Shown here in pieces: positions 5,036-40,792 of a DNA stretch of 64,000 nucleotides. Numbering within the stretch: position 1 is the first letter of the stretch; every line of letters starts with the position of its first letter. The notes beneath the pieces were generated by a model. The model ran no database searches, had not been told where the DNA came from, and worked only from the letters and a program-made list of their open reading frames with translations. Source of the DNA: Oscillatoria princeps RMCB-10. Its GTDB lineage: Bacteria; Cyanobacteriota; Cyanobacteriia; Cyanobacteriales; Oscillatoriaceae. The translations under genes were made by a program, and so were the position numbers. Location of the stretch: contig JAHHHT010000022.1 of assembly GCA_019359235.1 (NCBI GenBank), positions 1 through 64,000 on the forward strand, written 5' to 3'.

Positions 5036-6193
5036 CTATCGTCCCAACTGGCGGCGCAAATTAGCCAGCCGCTGTCTCGCCTTCAGGTGATTGGGAGTAA
5101 CTCTCAGCGCTCGGTCATAAGAATTGATCGCGTCTTCGTAGCGTTTCAGCTGCTCTAGCGCCACACCCCGGTTGTACCACGCATTAGAAGGGCTGGTATC
5201 CATTCCCCACTCCCCCCTGCTTTGCAAGGCTTTGTCATAAGCTTCTATCGCATTTTCGTACTGTTCCAACTGCAATAAAGCTGTAGCGCGATTGTACCAG
5301 GCCAGGGCAAATTGCGGATTGATGCCAGTCGCTTTGTCAAAAGCTGCCAGCGCTTCTTCTTTGCGCCCCAACTTCCACAGCGCCGAACCTTTGTGACTCC
5401 AAGCGGCTTCAAGGGTTTCCCCGCCCCACTCATTATTCACTTGAATCGCCTTGTCAAACGCCTGCGCCGCCTCTTCGTTGCGGTTCATGTCCCTGAGCAC
5501 GACGCCTCGCTGGAACCAAGCCAGAGAGTAATCGCCCTTGAGATCCGTAGCTTTCTGCAAAGCGGCAATCGCGGCGTCATACCGGCTCAATTCTCGGAGC
5601 ATCGCCCCTTTGCCCGCCAGAGCCGCAGCTGAATCCGGCTTGAGGCTGAGAGCCTGCTCGTAAATGGCCAGCGCTTGTTCGTACTGTTTCCTGCTCGCCA
5701 GATACCGCCCTCGGTTCAGCAACTGCAGCAAATCCCCAGACTCTGAAGCTGCCGGCTTGTCGGGAGTTGCCGGCTCGGGTTTGACGGGAGTAGTTGGGGT
5801 ATTCTGAGCCGGTGCCGGCTTGTCGGGAGCTGCCGGCTCGGGTTTGACGGGAGTAGTTGGGGTATTCTGAGCCGGTGCCGGCTTGTCGGGAGCTGCCGGC
5901 TCGGGTTTGACGGGAGTAGTTGGGGTATTCTGAGCCGGTGCCGGCTTGTCGGGAGTTGCCGGCTCGGGTTTAGCGGGCGTTTCTGGGGTGTTCTGAGCCG
6001 GTGCCGGTTTGTCTGAAGCTGCCGGCTCTGGCTTGGCGGGCGTTTCTGGGGTATTCTGAGCCGGTTTGTCTGAAGCCGCCGGCTCTGGCTTTGCCTGCGC
6101 TGCGGCGTCATTGCCCTCAGCCCAAACCGGCACTTGAACGCCAATGCTAACAGCGGCAGTAATAATAGAGACCCATTTGAGAGTGCGCTTCAT
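5036..6193 (-). CDS. Exported TPR protein with proline-rich repeat linker
   Basis: 385 residues. The start at 6193 gives a typical signal peptide (MKRTLKWVSIITAAVSIGVQVPVWA, cut after the Ala), whereas the longer frame from 6244 adds an unlikely Cys-rich lead. Residues about 35-150 are a proline/alanine/lysine linker of near-identical 21-residue units. The remainder is a run of about six TPR motifs (for example YEQALAIYEQALSLKPDSAAAL, AWYNRGVALEQLKRYEDAI). TPRs bind other proteins, so this is probably a periplasmic or cell-wall-spanning scaffold. The linker may pass through peptidoglycan, which is an inference. Monocistronic. Confidence 0.85.
   Translation of the reverse strand: MKRTLKWVSIITAAVSIGVQVPVWAEGNDAAAQAKPEPAASDKPAQNTPETPAKPEPAASDKPAPAQNTPETPAKPEPATPDKPAPAQNTPTTPVKPEPAAPDKPAPAQNTPTTPVKPEPAAPDKPAPAQNTPTTPVKPEPATPDKPAASESGDLLQLLNRGRYLASRKQYEQALAIYEQALSLKPDSAAALAGKGAMLRELSRYDAAIAALQKATDLKGDYSLAWFQRGVVLRDMNRNEEAAQAFDKAIQVNNEWGGETLEAAWSHKGSALWKLGRKEEALAAFDKATGINPQFALAWYNRATALLQLEQYENAIEAYDKALQSRGEWGMDTSPSNAWYNRGVALEQLKRYEDAINSYDRALRVTPNHLKARQRLANLRRQLGR
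5751..6091 (-). repeat. 63-bp in-frame minisatellite in the TPR gene
   Basis: About five to six head-to-tail 63-bp units (21 codons) encoding proline-rich segments such as PAPAQNTPTTP and KPEPAAPDK. The three central units are almost identical at DNA level; the flanking ones carry Glu or Ser changes and one is 6 bases shorter. Because the unit is a multiple of three, copy-number changes keep the frame open and only alter linker length. Confidence 0.9.
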
Positions 6194-6330
6194 AGGACTA
6201 TATCTATAAGAGTCAGTGCCACCGCAATTGTAACAGTGGGTCAACTTTCGCGATATACCCTCGTTCCCGGGCTGCTGCCGAAGCTCTCGGTGGTGGCAAG
6301 GTTCTAAACTAGATTAACCTGCCTCCCCCG

Positions 6331-15459: not shown

Positions 15460-16752
15460 GTGAAAGTCGCAGAAAGGCATTACATAGATAGACAGCACCG
15501 ATTTTTCCTTTCCTTGGATGAGTTATCCTTTAAGTCCAAGAACTTGTATAACTTGTCGGCATACTACATGAGGCGGGGGCGGGTTTATGACAATCCTGAG
15601 CTGTGTCACAAGGATTTCGGGCGAACCCGCCCCTACAATCGAGGTGCCATCTGAGTGACCGCCTGACCCTCAAAGAGCTTTATGCGGTACTGAAACCGAC
15701 AGAAGCGTATAAAGCCTTACCAGCTAAGGTAAGCAATCAGATTATTAAGCAGGTTATTCACGATGGGTCGGCGTGTCAAGAGGCAACACTTGCATACCTA
15801 GACGACAGCAGCAAGTTCCAAGGGCAACCTCAAATTCCTAAATACAAGCATAAAACTTGTGGCCGCAATCTGGTACGATAATCAATCTATAGGTCAGAGA
15901 GGGAAACACAAGAATAGCGGATTGTTGCGCCTGTCCCAAACTAACATAGTTGTTCAGACACGAGTTCTGGATGTCGTAGAGGTGCGGCGCAGTACCCAGA
16001 GTGGCCTCTGACGTTATTGAGGTGGTCTATGAAAAGCCTGCGACTCTTGCTCAGCTGAACCCCCGGCTGGTAGCTGGAATATATTTGGGGATTGACAATC
16101 AGGCGGCATTAGTGTCAAACTTTCCCCGGTTTTGTGCCGATTTTAGTGGGCGGCGATCGCCTGAAGTCTATCAATCAGGGCTATAACAAGAAGGTGGCTG
16201 TTCTTAAATCTTGCGTTACAGGGAAAATGTCAAACTAGCAAGCGGATACAGCAGATTACTTTTAAGCGCAATAAACAAGTTGATGACTATTTGCACAAAG
16301 CCAGTCGCTTCATTGTAGACTGCTTGGTAGAGTCGCAAATAGGCCAGCGAGTTATCGGAAAAAATCCTGAGGGTCAGCCAGAAGTCGATTTGGGTAAAAA
16401 GAGCCACCAGAGTTTCGTTTATATTCCCCATGCTAGACTCATCGAAATGATTACTTATAAAGCTGAAATCGCTGGTATTAAGGTGGCTGTTACCGATGAT
16501 TCCTATACCAGTAAAACTTCCTTTCTTGATTTGGGCTGGCGCGAAAAGCGTGAGTCTTATCAGGGCAAAAGGGTCAAGAGAGGGCTGTTTAGATCCAGCA
16601 ATGGTGCGCTAATTAATGCGGACGGTAACGGAGCTTTTAACATAATCCGAAAAGTCAGCGGAAACGAGCCTTTTAATCAGGTTACGCTCCGTGTGGGAGG
16701 TGGCAAGCAGTTTCACCTGTACGGGTTTCTCCCGTGCGAAAAACAACCCTGA
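15460..16752 (+). pseudogene. tnpB: Decayed tnpB (IS200/IS605 OrfB-type)
   Basis: Fragments in several frames add up to one TnpB. The N-terminus reads VAERHYIDRQHRFF and SKNLYNLSAYY (GTG start near 15460). YKALPAKVSNQIIKQ and GQPQIPKYK follow at 15660-15881, AGIYLGIDNQAALVSN at about 16070 (RuvC-I Asp in GID), and a long C-terminal piece runs from about 16205 to 16752 with ESQIGQRVIG, SFVYIPHARLIEMI, DDSYTSKTSFLD and NADGNGAFNIIRKV (RuvC-III Asp). TnpB is the RNA-guided nuclease of IS605-type elements. At least three frame breaks plus an inserted 65-bp repeat at 15572-15636 mean it is dead. No tnpA is present and the element ends could not be placed. The 731-bp stretch after it up to 17483 has no gene. 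Confidence 0.85.
15572..15636. repeat. GGGGCGGG-family repeat inserted in tnpB
   Basis: Starts GGCGGGGGCGGGTTTA and ends GCGAACCCGCCCCTAC, the same ends and inner motifs (CAATCC, CTGTGTC, GATTTCGGG) as the copies at 40874-40940 and 41420-41486. It falls inside the conserved N-terminal region of the tnpB remnant, directly after LYNLSAYYMR, so it inserted there. Confidence 0.8.
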
Positions 16753-27431: not shown

Positions 27432-27647
27432 GCTGCCTGAAACTCCTGCCTGTCGATTTTAGAAAAGCATATTTTAGAGCCTAGCTTCCTTGACAACTGC
27501 TACAATACCTGTTCGACTTTTCCCTATTTTGGCGCTTTTAATCCTACCACACCGAGAGCGCGAATTTGCTCTTCTGGGATGGAAAATAAGCTGTTAAACT
27601 TTTAATATGCCTGTCTGTTGAGAGGGGGCAGCAGCCCCCCAGAGGAT

Positions 27648-27725
27648 CGTTCCCAGCATGAGCTGGGAACGAGGGGAACGAGGGGAAACGAGGGGAACGG
27701 GGCTAAAGCCCAACTACAAACGGCA
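27648..27725. repeat. REP-like palindrome and GGGCTAAAGCCC motif
   Basis: CGTTCCCAGC-ATGA-GCTGGGAACG at 27648-27671 with GAGGGGAACGA repeats after it, then one copy of the window-edge repeat core (GGGCTAAAGCCC...ACTACAAAC) ending near 27722. No gene is seen in 27432-27880 apart from this. Confidence 0.8.
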
Positions 27726-27880
27726 TCCCGCTAAAGTGGCCAATCGCCCGACGCCCTTGGGCCCACCTGCCAGCAGCCTGCCGGTGGCGAAACCGTAATA
27801 ATAGAACAAGCAGTCGCTAGCCGGTCGCCGGTCGGGTGCGGCTGCGCCAAGCCATCTCAACCTTAGCGGAAACAAAGACC

Positions 27881-28036
27881 ATGAAACTCTTTGGCTGTTG
27901 CTTAAAACTGATTCGCAAAAGCTTCGGCTTGCTGTTCGTCCTTCTCGGAAGCATTCCCACCTTCCTGATCCCTGGCATTGGGCTATTCCTCGGTTTGCCC
28001 TTCCTGCTCATTGGTGCCATTTTGCTAGGGTGCTGA
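27881..28036 (+). CDS. Small membrane protein, 51 residues
   Basis: Short gene: a basic N-terminus (MKLFGCCLKLIRKSFG) then two hydrophobic segments (LLFVLLGSIPTFLI and IGLFLGLPFLLIGAILLGC). The start at 27881 is chosen because the hydrophobic protein begins there; the frame is open for 15 further codons upstream. A strong hairpin that could end transcription follows at 28086. Composition suggests a real small membrane protein; no family recognised. Confidence 0.55.
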   Translation: MKLFGCCLKLIRKSFGLLFVLLGSIPTFLIPGIGLFLGLPFLLIGAILLGC

Positions 28037-28085
28037 TCCCGCACAGTCGGGCCCACCGGCTGCCGGTAGCCCCTTAAAAACGTTT

Positions 28086-28115
28086 AGAGCCTAGCCGGTG
28101 GGGCTAGGCTCTTTA
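28086..28115 (+). terminator. Hairpin terminator after the small membrane gene
   Basis: Perfect 11-bp stem AGAGCCTAGCC (28086-28096) / GGCTAGGCTCT (28102-28112) with a 5-base loop, followed by only three Ts. The stem is strong, the T-run weak. Confidence 0.6.
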
Positions 28116-28165
28116 GTTACGAACGATAGATTTATCAACGAGTCAAACAAAAACGACTACTGGAT

Positions 28166-29614
28166 CGAGTGCAAACAATCAACAACTAGGGTGGACAATG
28201 TACTCAGGGACTCTCGACAGGGGACACCGGGTCTAAGCCCATCATCAAGAAGAACTGGTTTTCCATCACTCCTTTTTGCTCTGGACTGCTTTTCAACACT
28301 CTGGTTGGTGTCCACTATTAAATTAACACAGCCCTCTGGAATGCGAGCGATTCCTTTACAAAATTTTACATGACGCCGGCTTGACGGTCGAGTGAGCGAG
28401 CGCTGCCGATCAGTCCGCCCGAAAACTCCAGTGGGTTCAGTCAGCGATGACCGAACCCACTAGACGAAGGTTTTATAACTCAACTAGCAAAGCTGGGGTT
28501 TCCCAGAAAGAACAAGTAAAAACGGTTCGAGTGCAAACAATCAACAACTAGGGTGGACAGTGTGTTCTTGGACTCTCGACAGGGGACACCGGGTCTAAGC
28601 CCATCATCAAGAAGAACTGGTTTTCTTTCACTCCTTATTTGCTCTGGACTGCTGTTCAACACTCTGGTTGGTGTCCACTATTAAAGTAACACAGCCTTTG
28701 GGAATGCGAGCGATTCCTTTACAAAATTTTACATGACGCCGGCTTGACGGTCGAATAAGCGAGCTATGCGGAGGAATCCGCCCGAAAACTCCAGTGGGTT
28801 CAGTCAGCGATGACCGAACCCACTAGACGAAGATTCTGTGATTCAACGAGTTAAGCTGGGGTTTCCCAGAAAGAACAAATAAAAACGGTTCGAGTGCAAA
28901 CAATCAACAACTAGGGTGGACAATGTGCGCTAGGACTCTCGACAGGGGACACCGGGTCTAAGCCCATCATCAAGAAGAACTGGTTTTCTTTCACTCCTTT
29001 TTGCTCTGGACTGCTTTTCAACACTCTGGTTGGTGTCCACTATTAAAGTAACACAGCCTTTGGGAATGCGAGCGATTCCTTTACAAAATTTTACATGACG
29101 CCGGCTTGACGGTCGAATAAGCGAGCTATGCGGAGGAATCCGCCCGAAAACTCCAGTGGGTTCAGTCAGCGATGACCGAACCCACTAGACGAAGATTCTG
29201 TGATTCAACGAGTTAAGCTGGGGTTTCCCAGAAAGGACAAATAAAAACGACTGGTGATTTCGAGTGTGGACAATCTACAACTAGGGTGGACAATGTGCTC
29301 AGGGACTCTCGACAGGGGACACCGGGTCTAAGCCCATCATCAAGAAGAACTGGTTTTCTTTCACTCCTTTTTGCTCTGGACTGCTGTTTAACACTCTGGT
29401 TGGTGTCCACTATTAAAGTAACACAGCCTTTGGGAATGCGAGCGATTCCTTTACAAAATTTTACATGACGCCGGCTTGACGGTCGAGTGAGCGAGCTATG
29501 CGGAGGAATCCGCCCGAAAATTCTAAGGGTCCAGTCAGGATGACCGGACCCACTAGACGAAAGTTATCTGATTCAAAGAGTTTAGTTGGGTTTGCGAAAA
29601 AGAACAGTTAACTA
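28166..29614. repeat. Four tandem ~360-bp structured non-coding units
   Basis: Units start at CTAGGGTGGACA at 28186, 28548, 28911 and 29281 (periods 362, 363, 370), with a further start at 29615. Each holds in order GACAGGGGACACCGGGTC, a GTGTCCAC that can pair with the opening GTGGACA, a GGAAT/ATTCC hairpin followed by CCTTTACAAAA, TTGACGGTCGA, a GCGGA-GGAA-TCCGC hairpin (not in unit 1), a long hairpin GTGGGTTC...GAACCCAC and a CTGGG-GTTT-CCCAG hairpin. In unit 4 the long stem reads GGGTCC/GGACCC instead of GGGTTC/GAACCC, a compensated pair change, which argues for a folded RNA. No long gene lies inside. An IscB omega-RNA (HEARO)-like identity is possible but unproven; no iscB is in the window. 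Confidence 0.85.
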
Positions 29615-29870
29615 CTAGGGTGGACAGATATTGCAGCTTCGCCTCTAACTTGTTCGCATTGTCTTTCCGGACTTTGGTTTGGCTGCGCCCCTTCGGGGCC
29701 TCTAGCCACTTTTTGCTATGCTAGTTAAGGTTCCACTGCCTCGGGCTTGGACAGGAGACACCGGGTCGCAGCCCACAGATGCTTGTTTCAACCGTTTTAT
29801 TCATCTTTCGGGTGCCTACTATCAAGTTATCACAGCGTTTTTTGACCGGCAACCCCTTTTTACCAAGATT
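29605..29870 (+). ncRNA. Diverged fifth unit of the structured array
   Basis: It begins ACTACTAGGGTGGACA like the tandem units, then keeps only islands: GACAGGAGACACCGGGTC, AGCCCA, GGTGCCTACTATCAAG and TTATCACAGCG. The conserved islands keep the order and rough spacing seen in the intact units, which helps define what matters in them. It ends about 175 bp before alaS, so it lies in or near the alaS leader. Whether it is transcribed is not known. Confidence 0.5.
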
Positions 29871-30045
29871 TACTCTTATTTACATTCAGCAATATTTGCC
29901 TTACATAGCTTTACGATTGGCCGGCCTCATCTGCGGGACGGGGGGGCGAGGGGGCGGCGGAGCGAGACGGGAGGCACGCACCGCGCACCGGCAGCGAGTG
30001 TAACAATAGAAACACATCGATCCATACAGTTGTCTTGGCACACCT

Positions 30046-32676
<2,631 letters not shown>

Positions 32677-39418: not shown

Positions 39419-40792
39419 ATGGTTTGGGCAACAGGGCACAGCTTGCAGGGCGGGCGGTACGTCATCGAACAAGTTTTGGGACAAGGTGGCTTCGGGATTA
39501 CCTATAAAGCGCAGCCCCAGCTTCTCAAACAGCCGGTTGTGATTAAAACGATCAATGAGAGTTTGAGAGATGACCCAGAATATGATAAGTATGTGAGGCG
39601 ATTCATCGAGGAAGGGCGGCAAATGGAAAACCTGTCTGAAAAGCAGCATCCTAATATTGTGCGCGTCAGGGATTTGTTTCAAGAGGGAGGTACATACTGT
39701 CTAGTGATGGATTTTGTAGCGGGGGAGAGTTTGTGGGATCTGGTGCAGCGGCGGGGGGCGTTACCGGAATGGGAAGCGGTGGATTATGTGCGACAAATTG
39801 GGGAAGCCCTAATGGTGGTGCACGCGGCGGGGCTTGTGCATCGGGACGCTCACCCCGGTAATATAATGGTGCAGAGTGATGGCAAGGCGGTTTTAATTGA
39901 TTTTGGCATTGCTGGGGAAATTTTTCCTGCTGTGAATAGTTCCATGCATCCTGCCAATCGAGCTTTTGCCCCTTACGAGCAGATAGACGGCGTTCGAGAG
40001 CCGGCGGTAGATATTTACTGTCTGGCGGCTTCTCTCTATTATGCCATAACGGGTCAGCTTCCGGCATCTTCTTTAAAGCGCAAGCTGAACAATGTGCGAT
40101 TAGTTCCGCCGAAGCAACTAGCTGAGGGTATCGGGGATGAGTTGAATCGGGCGATTCTCAAGGGGATGGAGTTGGAAGCGGAGAAACGCCCCCAGTCGAT
40201 GCGGGAATGGTTGAAGTTGTTGGAATCGGCGAATCGCACTCAGCCGGTGTCCCCACCGCCAGGGAGAAATAAGCCGGTTGTCAAACAGGGGCTAAGAGTT
40301 ATCCCTTGGTTGTGGTTAGCAGCAGTTTTGTTAAGTTACACTATTTTCGGCTTCTGCTTAGCACATGAGTTAGTGGTTTGGGCTTTGGCTTTGGTTTTGG
40401 CTTGGGCTTTGGCTTGGGCTTTGGCTGGGGCTTTGGCTGGGGCTTTGGCTTGGGCTTTGGATTTGGCTGGGGCTTTGGCTGGGGCTTTGGCTTGGGCTTC
40501 GGCTTGGGCTTTGGCTTCGACTTTGGCTTCGGCTTTGGCTTCGACTTTGGCTTCGGCTTTGGCTTTGGCTTCGGCTTTGGCTTTGGCTTTGGCTTTGGCT
40601 TTGGCTTGGGGTTTGGCTTTGGCTTTGGCTTCGGCTTTGGCTTTGGCTTTGGCTTCGGCTTTGGCTTTGGCTGAAGAGCAGCTGCTAAAATCCTTCACCC
40701 GATTTCACACCTTTCTGATTGTGACTGGAACCTCTTGGTTAGGACTGGGGTTTGGGTTGTTGGTGTATCAGATATTTCCGGTATTTCAGTAA
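39419..40792 (+). CDS. Serine/threonine protein kinase with repeat-coded tail
   Basis: 457 residues. The Hanks-type kinase domain spans about 8-270: glycine loop [10 protein letters not shown], Lys in PVVIKTI, catalytic loop VHRDAHPGN (Asp kept; the usual Lys two residues on is replaced by His), DFG in LIDFGIAGE and APYEQ. After a Pro-rich linker ([12 protein letters not shown]), one hydrophobic segment ([16 protein letters not shown]) leads into about 100 residues of Ala-Leu-Ala repeats coded by GGCTTT hexamers (40378-40674), and a final segment ([22 protein letters not shown]) that is hydrophobic too. So it is a membrane-bound kinase with an unusual, length-unstable membrane part. GTGAGGG precedes the ATG. 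Confidence 0.88.
40378..40674 (+). repeat. GGCTTT/GGCTTG hexanucleotide array in the kinase gene
   Basis: About 50 hexamers, mostly GGCTTT, with GGCTTG, GGCTTC and GGCTGG variants. It codes Leu-Ala or Trp-Ala pairs in the kinase frame. The next frame on the same strand is also open (Gly-Phe repeats) and so is the opposite strand (Lys-Ala repeats), a consequence of the repeat, not of extra genes. Confidence 0.95.

Follow-up and report, generated by a model that had tools for sequence, protein, structure and literature searches.

In Nostoc sp. PCC 7120, the small RNAs 2462444f (258 nt, 151,091 reads) and 268249f (340 nt, 608,990 reads) have been described as abundant, Northern-confirmed transcripts whose induction under nitrogen limitation persists in ntcA and hetR mutants, and the passages of that report drawn on here place their homologues in heterocystous strains only, in 24 and 18 of 27 genomes (PMC4734099). 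NsiR1, in the source excerpts used, is a HetR-dependent RNA with a model of 60 nt. In Synechocystis, the excerpted account of PsrR1 presents it as an RpaB-regulated sRNA that acts in high light (PMC13421787). The binding site of RpaB is given in the cited passages as KTTACAWWN2KTTACAWW, and it activates when located at about -66 to -45 and represses when located over the start (PMC13421787, PMC11633204).

Here we analyzed a 64,000-nt stretch of the Oscillatoria princeps RMCB-10 genome (the window), which contains a tandem array of repeated units. We propose, with a probability of about 0.6, that these units are minus-strand RNA genes whose products act in trans, which are under RpaB-type control and which have been amplified in tandem.

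Organization of the Array

The array spans positions 28078-29876 and comprises four short units and a fifth, longer and divergent unit adjoining alaS, all of them on the minus strand (Table 1). The original prediction of four near-identical units was confirmed: they are spaced 363, 362, and 370 bp start to start and are 89-98% identical to unit 3, the reference in BLAST comparisons; the fifth unit beside alaS had been missed. Only these four close copies were found by BLAST in the 8.49 Mb genome, and profiles R1 and R2 (see below) added only the fifth. Each of the five units has the same minus-strand elements: an HLR1-like box, an extended -10 element, a 5' pseudoknot strand, a GUNNACCYUAG motif, and a terminator-like hairpin. 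Judged from the comparison of these parts with those of relatives, each unit is very probably an independent gene on the minus strand, encoding a structured non-coding RNA of about 236-300 nt.

Table 1. Features of the array, its neighbors, and other ORFs of the window.
Feature	Positions	Strand	Details
RNA gene copy 1, short type	28078..28372	-	box 28372-28355, -10 28328-28320, predicted start ~28313
Copy 1 RNA parts		-	pseudoknot 28313-28307 with loop 28228-28222, motif 28197-28186, terminator-like hairpin 28111-28087
RNA gene copy 2, short type	28418..28735	-	box 28735-28718, -10 28691-28683, predicted start ~28676
Copy 2 RNA parts		-	pseudoknot 28676-28670 with 28590-28584, motif 28559-28548, terminator-like hairpin 28464-28427
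RNA gene copy 3, short type	28781..29097	-	box 29097-29080, -10 29053-29045, predicted start ~29038
Copy 3 RNA parts		-	pseudoknot 29038-29032 with 28953-28947, motif 28922-28911, terminator-like hairpin 28827-28790
RNA gene copy 4, short type	29143..29467	-	box 29467-29450, -10 29423-29415, predicted start ~29408
Copy 4 RNA parts		-	pseudoknot 29408-29402 with 29323-29317, motif 29292-29281, terminator-like hairpin 29189-29152
RNA gene copy 5, long type, divergent from alaS	29518..29876	-	box 29876-29859, -10 29832-29824, predicted start ~29817, RNA 29817-29518
Copy 5 RNA parts		-	pseudoknot 29817-29811 with 29762-29756, motif 29626-29615, terminator-like hairpin 29551-29527
Copy 5 extra domain		-	GCAG/CTGC closing pairs near 29739 and 29637
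alaS (presumed), divergent neighbor	30046..32676	+	likewise in many relatives
Conserved small ORF, 51 aa	27881..28036	+	convergent with the array
ORF, presumably resembling the C-terminal part of a TnpB/OrfB transposase	16291..16752	+	
Kinase-like ORF	39419..40792	+	C-terminal part is a long ALA/LEU/TRP repeat run, the opposite strand is open too, with AKAKAEA repeats
TPR-like ORF	5036..6244	-	several near-identical Pro/Ala-rich repeats (PEPAAPDKPAPAQNTPTTPVK)

The divergent neighbor is an ORF that, from its sequence, we take to be alaS, coding for an alanyl-tRNA synthetase. The 51-aa ORF on the other side also adjoins the RNA in several relatives (loci L027, L028, L034, L035, and L055). In Oscillatoria sp. 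PCC 10802, there are five copies of the short type and one of the long type. Units 2-4 share 94-97% identity among themselves and 85-89% with the inner copies of that strain, which are in turn 93-99% alike; the end copies are 86 and 90% identical to their positional partners there. Since inner copies are more alike within than between genomes, they have been homogenized or re-expanded in each genome.

Strand and Terminator-Like Hairpin

Comparison of the copies indicated that the RNA is encoded by the minus strand. Using a scoring neutral between strands, the wobble pairs of 50 distinct terminator hairpins in the minus-strand reading amounted to 32 G.U versus 2 A.C, and to 42 versus 3 when close copies were counted in (62 of 88 copies). 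TTTT occurs within 12 nt 3' of the hairpin in 38 of the 50, versus 3 of 50 for the mirror sign of a plus-strand RNA. Among the first 42 distinct copies, 41 have a G+C-rich minus-strand hairpin of 9-17 pairs located 3' of the unit and followed in most of them by a T-run, which is not clear in L031, L035, and L040; in L057 the script picked an internal stem. A hairpin of the set score was absent from the stretch searched in 26 of 88 copies, many from Microcoleus or of type B. The strand assignment draws mainly on these hairpins, since the pseudoknot cells of alignment A5 (see below) gave a less decisive 10 G.U versus 6 A.C.

The long stem of the original prediction has A.C mismatches on the plus strand that become G.U pairs on the minus strand, with TTTT at its 3' side there, and it looks like a minus-strand terminator. 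Its change from GGGTTC/GAACCC to GGGTCC/GGACCC, which had been attributed to unit 4, is in the sequence, but this version of the hairpin lies at the end of the fifth RNA. The selection on RNA structure read from that change is borne out by the wider alignments, although on the minus strand instead. The hairpin followed by CCTTTACAAAA, taken at that time as part of an RNA layout, had to be abandoned: CCTTTACAAAA is the promoter box read backwards and lies outside the RNA body.

Conservation of a 5' Pseudoknot

The folding energy of unit 3 is not unusual (z -0.63 on the plus and -1.65 on the minus strand), and the structural case therefore rests on comparison. The 5' end of units 1-4, GGACACC, can pair with GGTGTCC in the loop of the first hairpin, and this helix was put forward unprompted by RNAalifold. 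For pairing analyses, 91 of 99 matches were taken, 88 of them distinct; five short 3' pieces, L093 1501, L127, and L076 (a repeat of L056) were left out. Alignment A5 was obtained by setting 8 copies aside and aligning 35 of 48 diverse 5' domains, the other 13, mostly short-type or long-linker copies, being left out by hand. Alignment A1 held 19 copies, of which A2 retained 18 and A3 17.

In the 35 diverse 5' domains, the seven pseudoknot pairs are 95.1% paired, versus 31-56% in slid controls, and 34 cells are doubly changed versus 11.4 in shuffles (0/500); weaker measures gave 26/500 for pairs with both sides changed and 55/500 for pair types. Variants of the helix include GGACATC/GATGTCC, AGACACG/CGTGTCT, GGATACC/GGTATCC, and GGCACAA/TTGTGCC. 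In 17 long-type copies, pairing across the four named helices amounts to 91.3%, and 11 pairs are doubly changed versus 4.7 in shuffles (0/500); further pair types, a weaker measure, gave 40/500, and the outermost new helix is just 76.5% paired. When partners were searched with the own 5' strand of each copy, the mean score was 6.97, versus 6.06 with swapped-in strands and 4.79 with shuffled targets, the best pairing falling at the 3' motif or the linker instead of the loop in some copies. These comparisons indicated that the 5' pseudoknot is a conserved part of the RNA. A different pairing suggested by the short units, of 5' GUGGACA with UGUCCAC, was discarded, as by eye it is not preserved in copies with UGUAAACC.

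Predicted Promoter Elements

The extended -10 element TGNTANNNT is present in 90 of the 91 copies, and an HLR1-like box in reverse orientation precedes it at a fixed spacing: of 88 copies, 66 have their best-scoring box 25-27 nt before the -10, and 16 have it at 36 nt. At the fixed position, a score of 12/16 or more was reached by 38 of 50 diverse copies, versus 1.4% of shuffles. The remaining 12 of 50 lie below 12/16, and on visual inspection the Thermosynechococcus-like copy seems to have a weak box. On the 35 A5 segments there was no excess (10.26 versus 10.17 of 16), because these segments cut the box by two bases. Measured from the predicted start, the box is located at about -59 to -41, in agreement with the activating position of about -66 to -45 given for RpaB, and because of this location activation in low light would be expected. 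In long-type copies (e.g., L056, L026, L090, and L036), the box is preceded at a distance of ten bases by a third TGTAAA-like half-site, suggesting an arrangement of three tandem half-sites.

Distribution and Types

The RNA belongs to a family widely distributed in cyanobacteria. BLAST searches with unit 3 gave matches in 10 of 60 relatives. A 22-mer pattern matched in 33 of 243 genomes of the order, including Microcoleus, Tychonema, Lyngbya, Trichocoleus, Limnofasciculus, and Aphanothece; since the reversed control gave about 30 hits, mismatch-bearing hits were kept only when other parts were present, and another named hit, Aestuariicella, is a non-cyanobacterium and probably due to chance. 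Among 386 genomes of the phylum, profile R1 (long type) matched 67 and profile R2 (5' domain) 94 at E ≤ 1e-3; about five of the R2 matches, from small f47 and f54 genomes, are probably due to chance. In Nostocaceae, R2 matched 212 of 217 genomes at E ≤ 1e-5 (203 of 206 of good quality), mostly with two copies. By eye, these copies fall into type A, with RGACACC and a GAC..GTC hairpin, and type B, with GGTACA and a TTAGAGC..GCTCTAA hairpin. Type-B-like copies (GGCACA) also occur in other orders of the class, one of them in a genome that we presume to be that of Thermosynechococcus elongatus BP-1. The predicted length from start to terminator is 263-271 nt in 7 of 9 type A loci and 342-346 nt in 6 of 7 type B loci, three of these 16 Nostocaceae loci not having been recognized by the script.

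Using the array as query, no match was found in phage and plasmid collections, and a literature search yielded no description recognized as being of this RNA family. In the portion of the Nodularia start data used (PMC3610870), there was no start at two predicted places. Rfam 15 gave no match in the window at gathering scores, none in 27500-30100 at E ≤ 5, and none on the RNA in 32 relative loci. Two observations concern neighbors of the RNA in other genomes. In two related genomes, NsiR1 matches flank an RNA copy at a few kb (L119 near 1055 and 4425; L124 near 962 and 4355). In one Nostocaceae genome, the terminator of a type A RNA is followed at a short distance by a clear HEARO RNA on the same strand (L100 1166-1411, minus strand, E 3e-29), so that a HEARO element seems to have inserted next to the type A gene.

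Alternative Explanations

The original prediction assumed a plus-strand RNA and offered an orphan guide-RNA array of the HEARO type as one hypothesis. The hairpins do fold on the plus strand too, but the G.U and A.C counts and the T-runs favor the minus strand and no HEARO match was found: model RF02033 had no match in the window (gathering score) or in 27500-30100 (E ≤ 5), although it works elsewhere in the genome. Among the ORFs next to the array, no iscB or isrB was noticed. We thus excluded HEARO and consider a plus-strand RNA of any kind hardly credible. HEARO-like RNAs in the same genome were located at G000:C50:150522-150735, C26:201077-201301, C8:41658-41846, and C16:46149-46362, one of them over the cut-off. 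That the units encode a small peptide, or an RNA of dual function, is very unlikely: four related copies (L033, L044, L045, and L046) do have a Shine-Dalgarno sequence and frames sharing AVSPVC.PSAA, but a Shine-Dalgarno sequence, a start, and at least 10 codons are found in just 13 of 88 copies, with otherwise unrelated peptides, and no phase is kept open (24, 14, and 16 of 88). Apart from those four copies, a conserved frame was not seen. A role in cis on alaS, as a leader, an antisense RNA, or divergent-promoter control, would fit the occurrence of this gene on 42 of 105 loci (with overlapping loci from a single genome counted separately); in each of the 21 loci with the strict motif, alaS and the RNA are on opposite strands. 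The RNA, however, is directed away from alaS, which does not occur in the 1.5-5 kb flanks of Nostocaceae, Microcoleus-WJT46-like, and Thermosynechococcus-like loci; its absence from the fetched Nostocaceae flanks in particular makes such a role very improbable.

The mode of action of a trans-acting RNA is a separate matter. The GUNNACCYUAGU stretch is the best-conserved part of the 3' half of the RNA, and its accessibility is only slightly above that of the whole RNA (0.516 versus 0.467), being higher in 41 of 62 copies. In the genome, a 15-mer complementary to the motif gave the five copies at up to one mismatch and ten other two-mismatch places, versus eleven for the reversed control; the motif complement thus marks no target in the genome. 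An RNA working through protein binding instead of base pairing, either 6S-like on RNA polymerase or as a sponge for an RNA-binding protein, would suit the large conserved structure and homogenized inner copies, the lack of a pairing target, the motif that is not clearly accessible, the dose provided by the array, and the protected 5' end. No protein partner is known, though, and the Rfam scans showed no resemblance to 6S RNA, and we regard exclusive protein binding as unlikely.

Proposed Function and Comparison With Known Systems

We lean, by a little, towards the array RNA being a trans-acting regulator under RpaB-type light/redox control. The redox/light regulator RpaB would bind the HLR1-like box, a predicted site; the RNA would be stabilized by its 5' end being locked into the first hairpin loop; and an abundant RNA would act in trans, either through its conserved GUNNACCYUAGU stretch or by capturing a protein, with a higher dose provided by the array. 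More speculatively, this might be a core light/redox-controlled cyanobacterial RNA, like 6S RNA in spread and abundance, with a pseudoknot-locked 5' end and two ancient paralogues, of which type A occurs within the order and type B beyond it as well; such an RNA was overlooked since plain sequence searches saw only genus-level pieces, and a trimmed form of it would have been amplified into arrays in Oscillatoria-like genomes. The family, unnamed and wide in cyanobacteria, has promoters that look light-controlled and is probably an abundant regulator so far unrecognized. As a structured RNA retained by almost every Nostocaceae genome analyzed as well as by distantly related cyanobacteria, it would fill a gap in the picture of light or redox acclimation. 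It may rank among the most abundant sRNAs in Nostoc, and the arrays suggest that its dose is under selection.

The array RNA and HEARO or omega-RNA are alike in being structured RNAs of a few hundred nt; the former differs in having no RF02033 match and in having its own promoter and terminator-like parts. RNAs 2462444f and 268249f provide the strongest lead from the literature: as described in the cited passages, they are two per genome, abundant, and free-standing, with lengths near those of types A and B. However, their homologues are reported there only in heterocystous strains, fewer than R2 finds, and those passages mention neither a pseudoknot nor an RpaB box and do not connect the two RNAs with each other (PMC4734099). 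On length, number, and abundance, types A and B are likely candidates for 2462444f and 268249f, respectively; the nitrogen induction described for these would not be predicted by the RpaB model by itself. Like the array, NsiR1 (RF02399) of Nostocales consists of sRNA genes in tandem upstream of a conserved gene, but RF02399 had no match to the array units in the window or in 27500-30100. With PsrR1, in the account cited above, the array RNA would share membership of the RpaB regulon, proposed here from the box; PsrR1 acts in high light, whereas the box of the array RNA is at the activating, low-light place.
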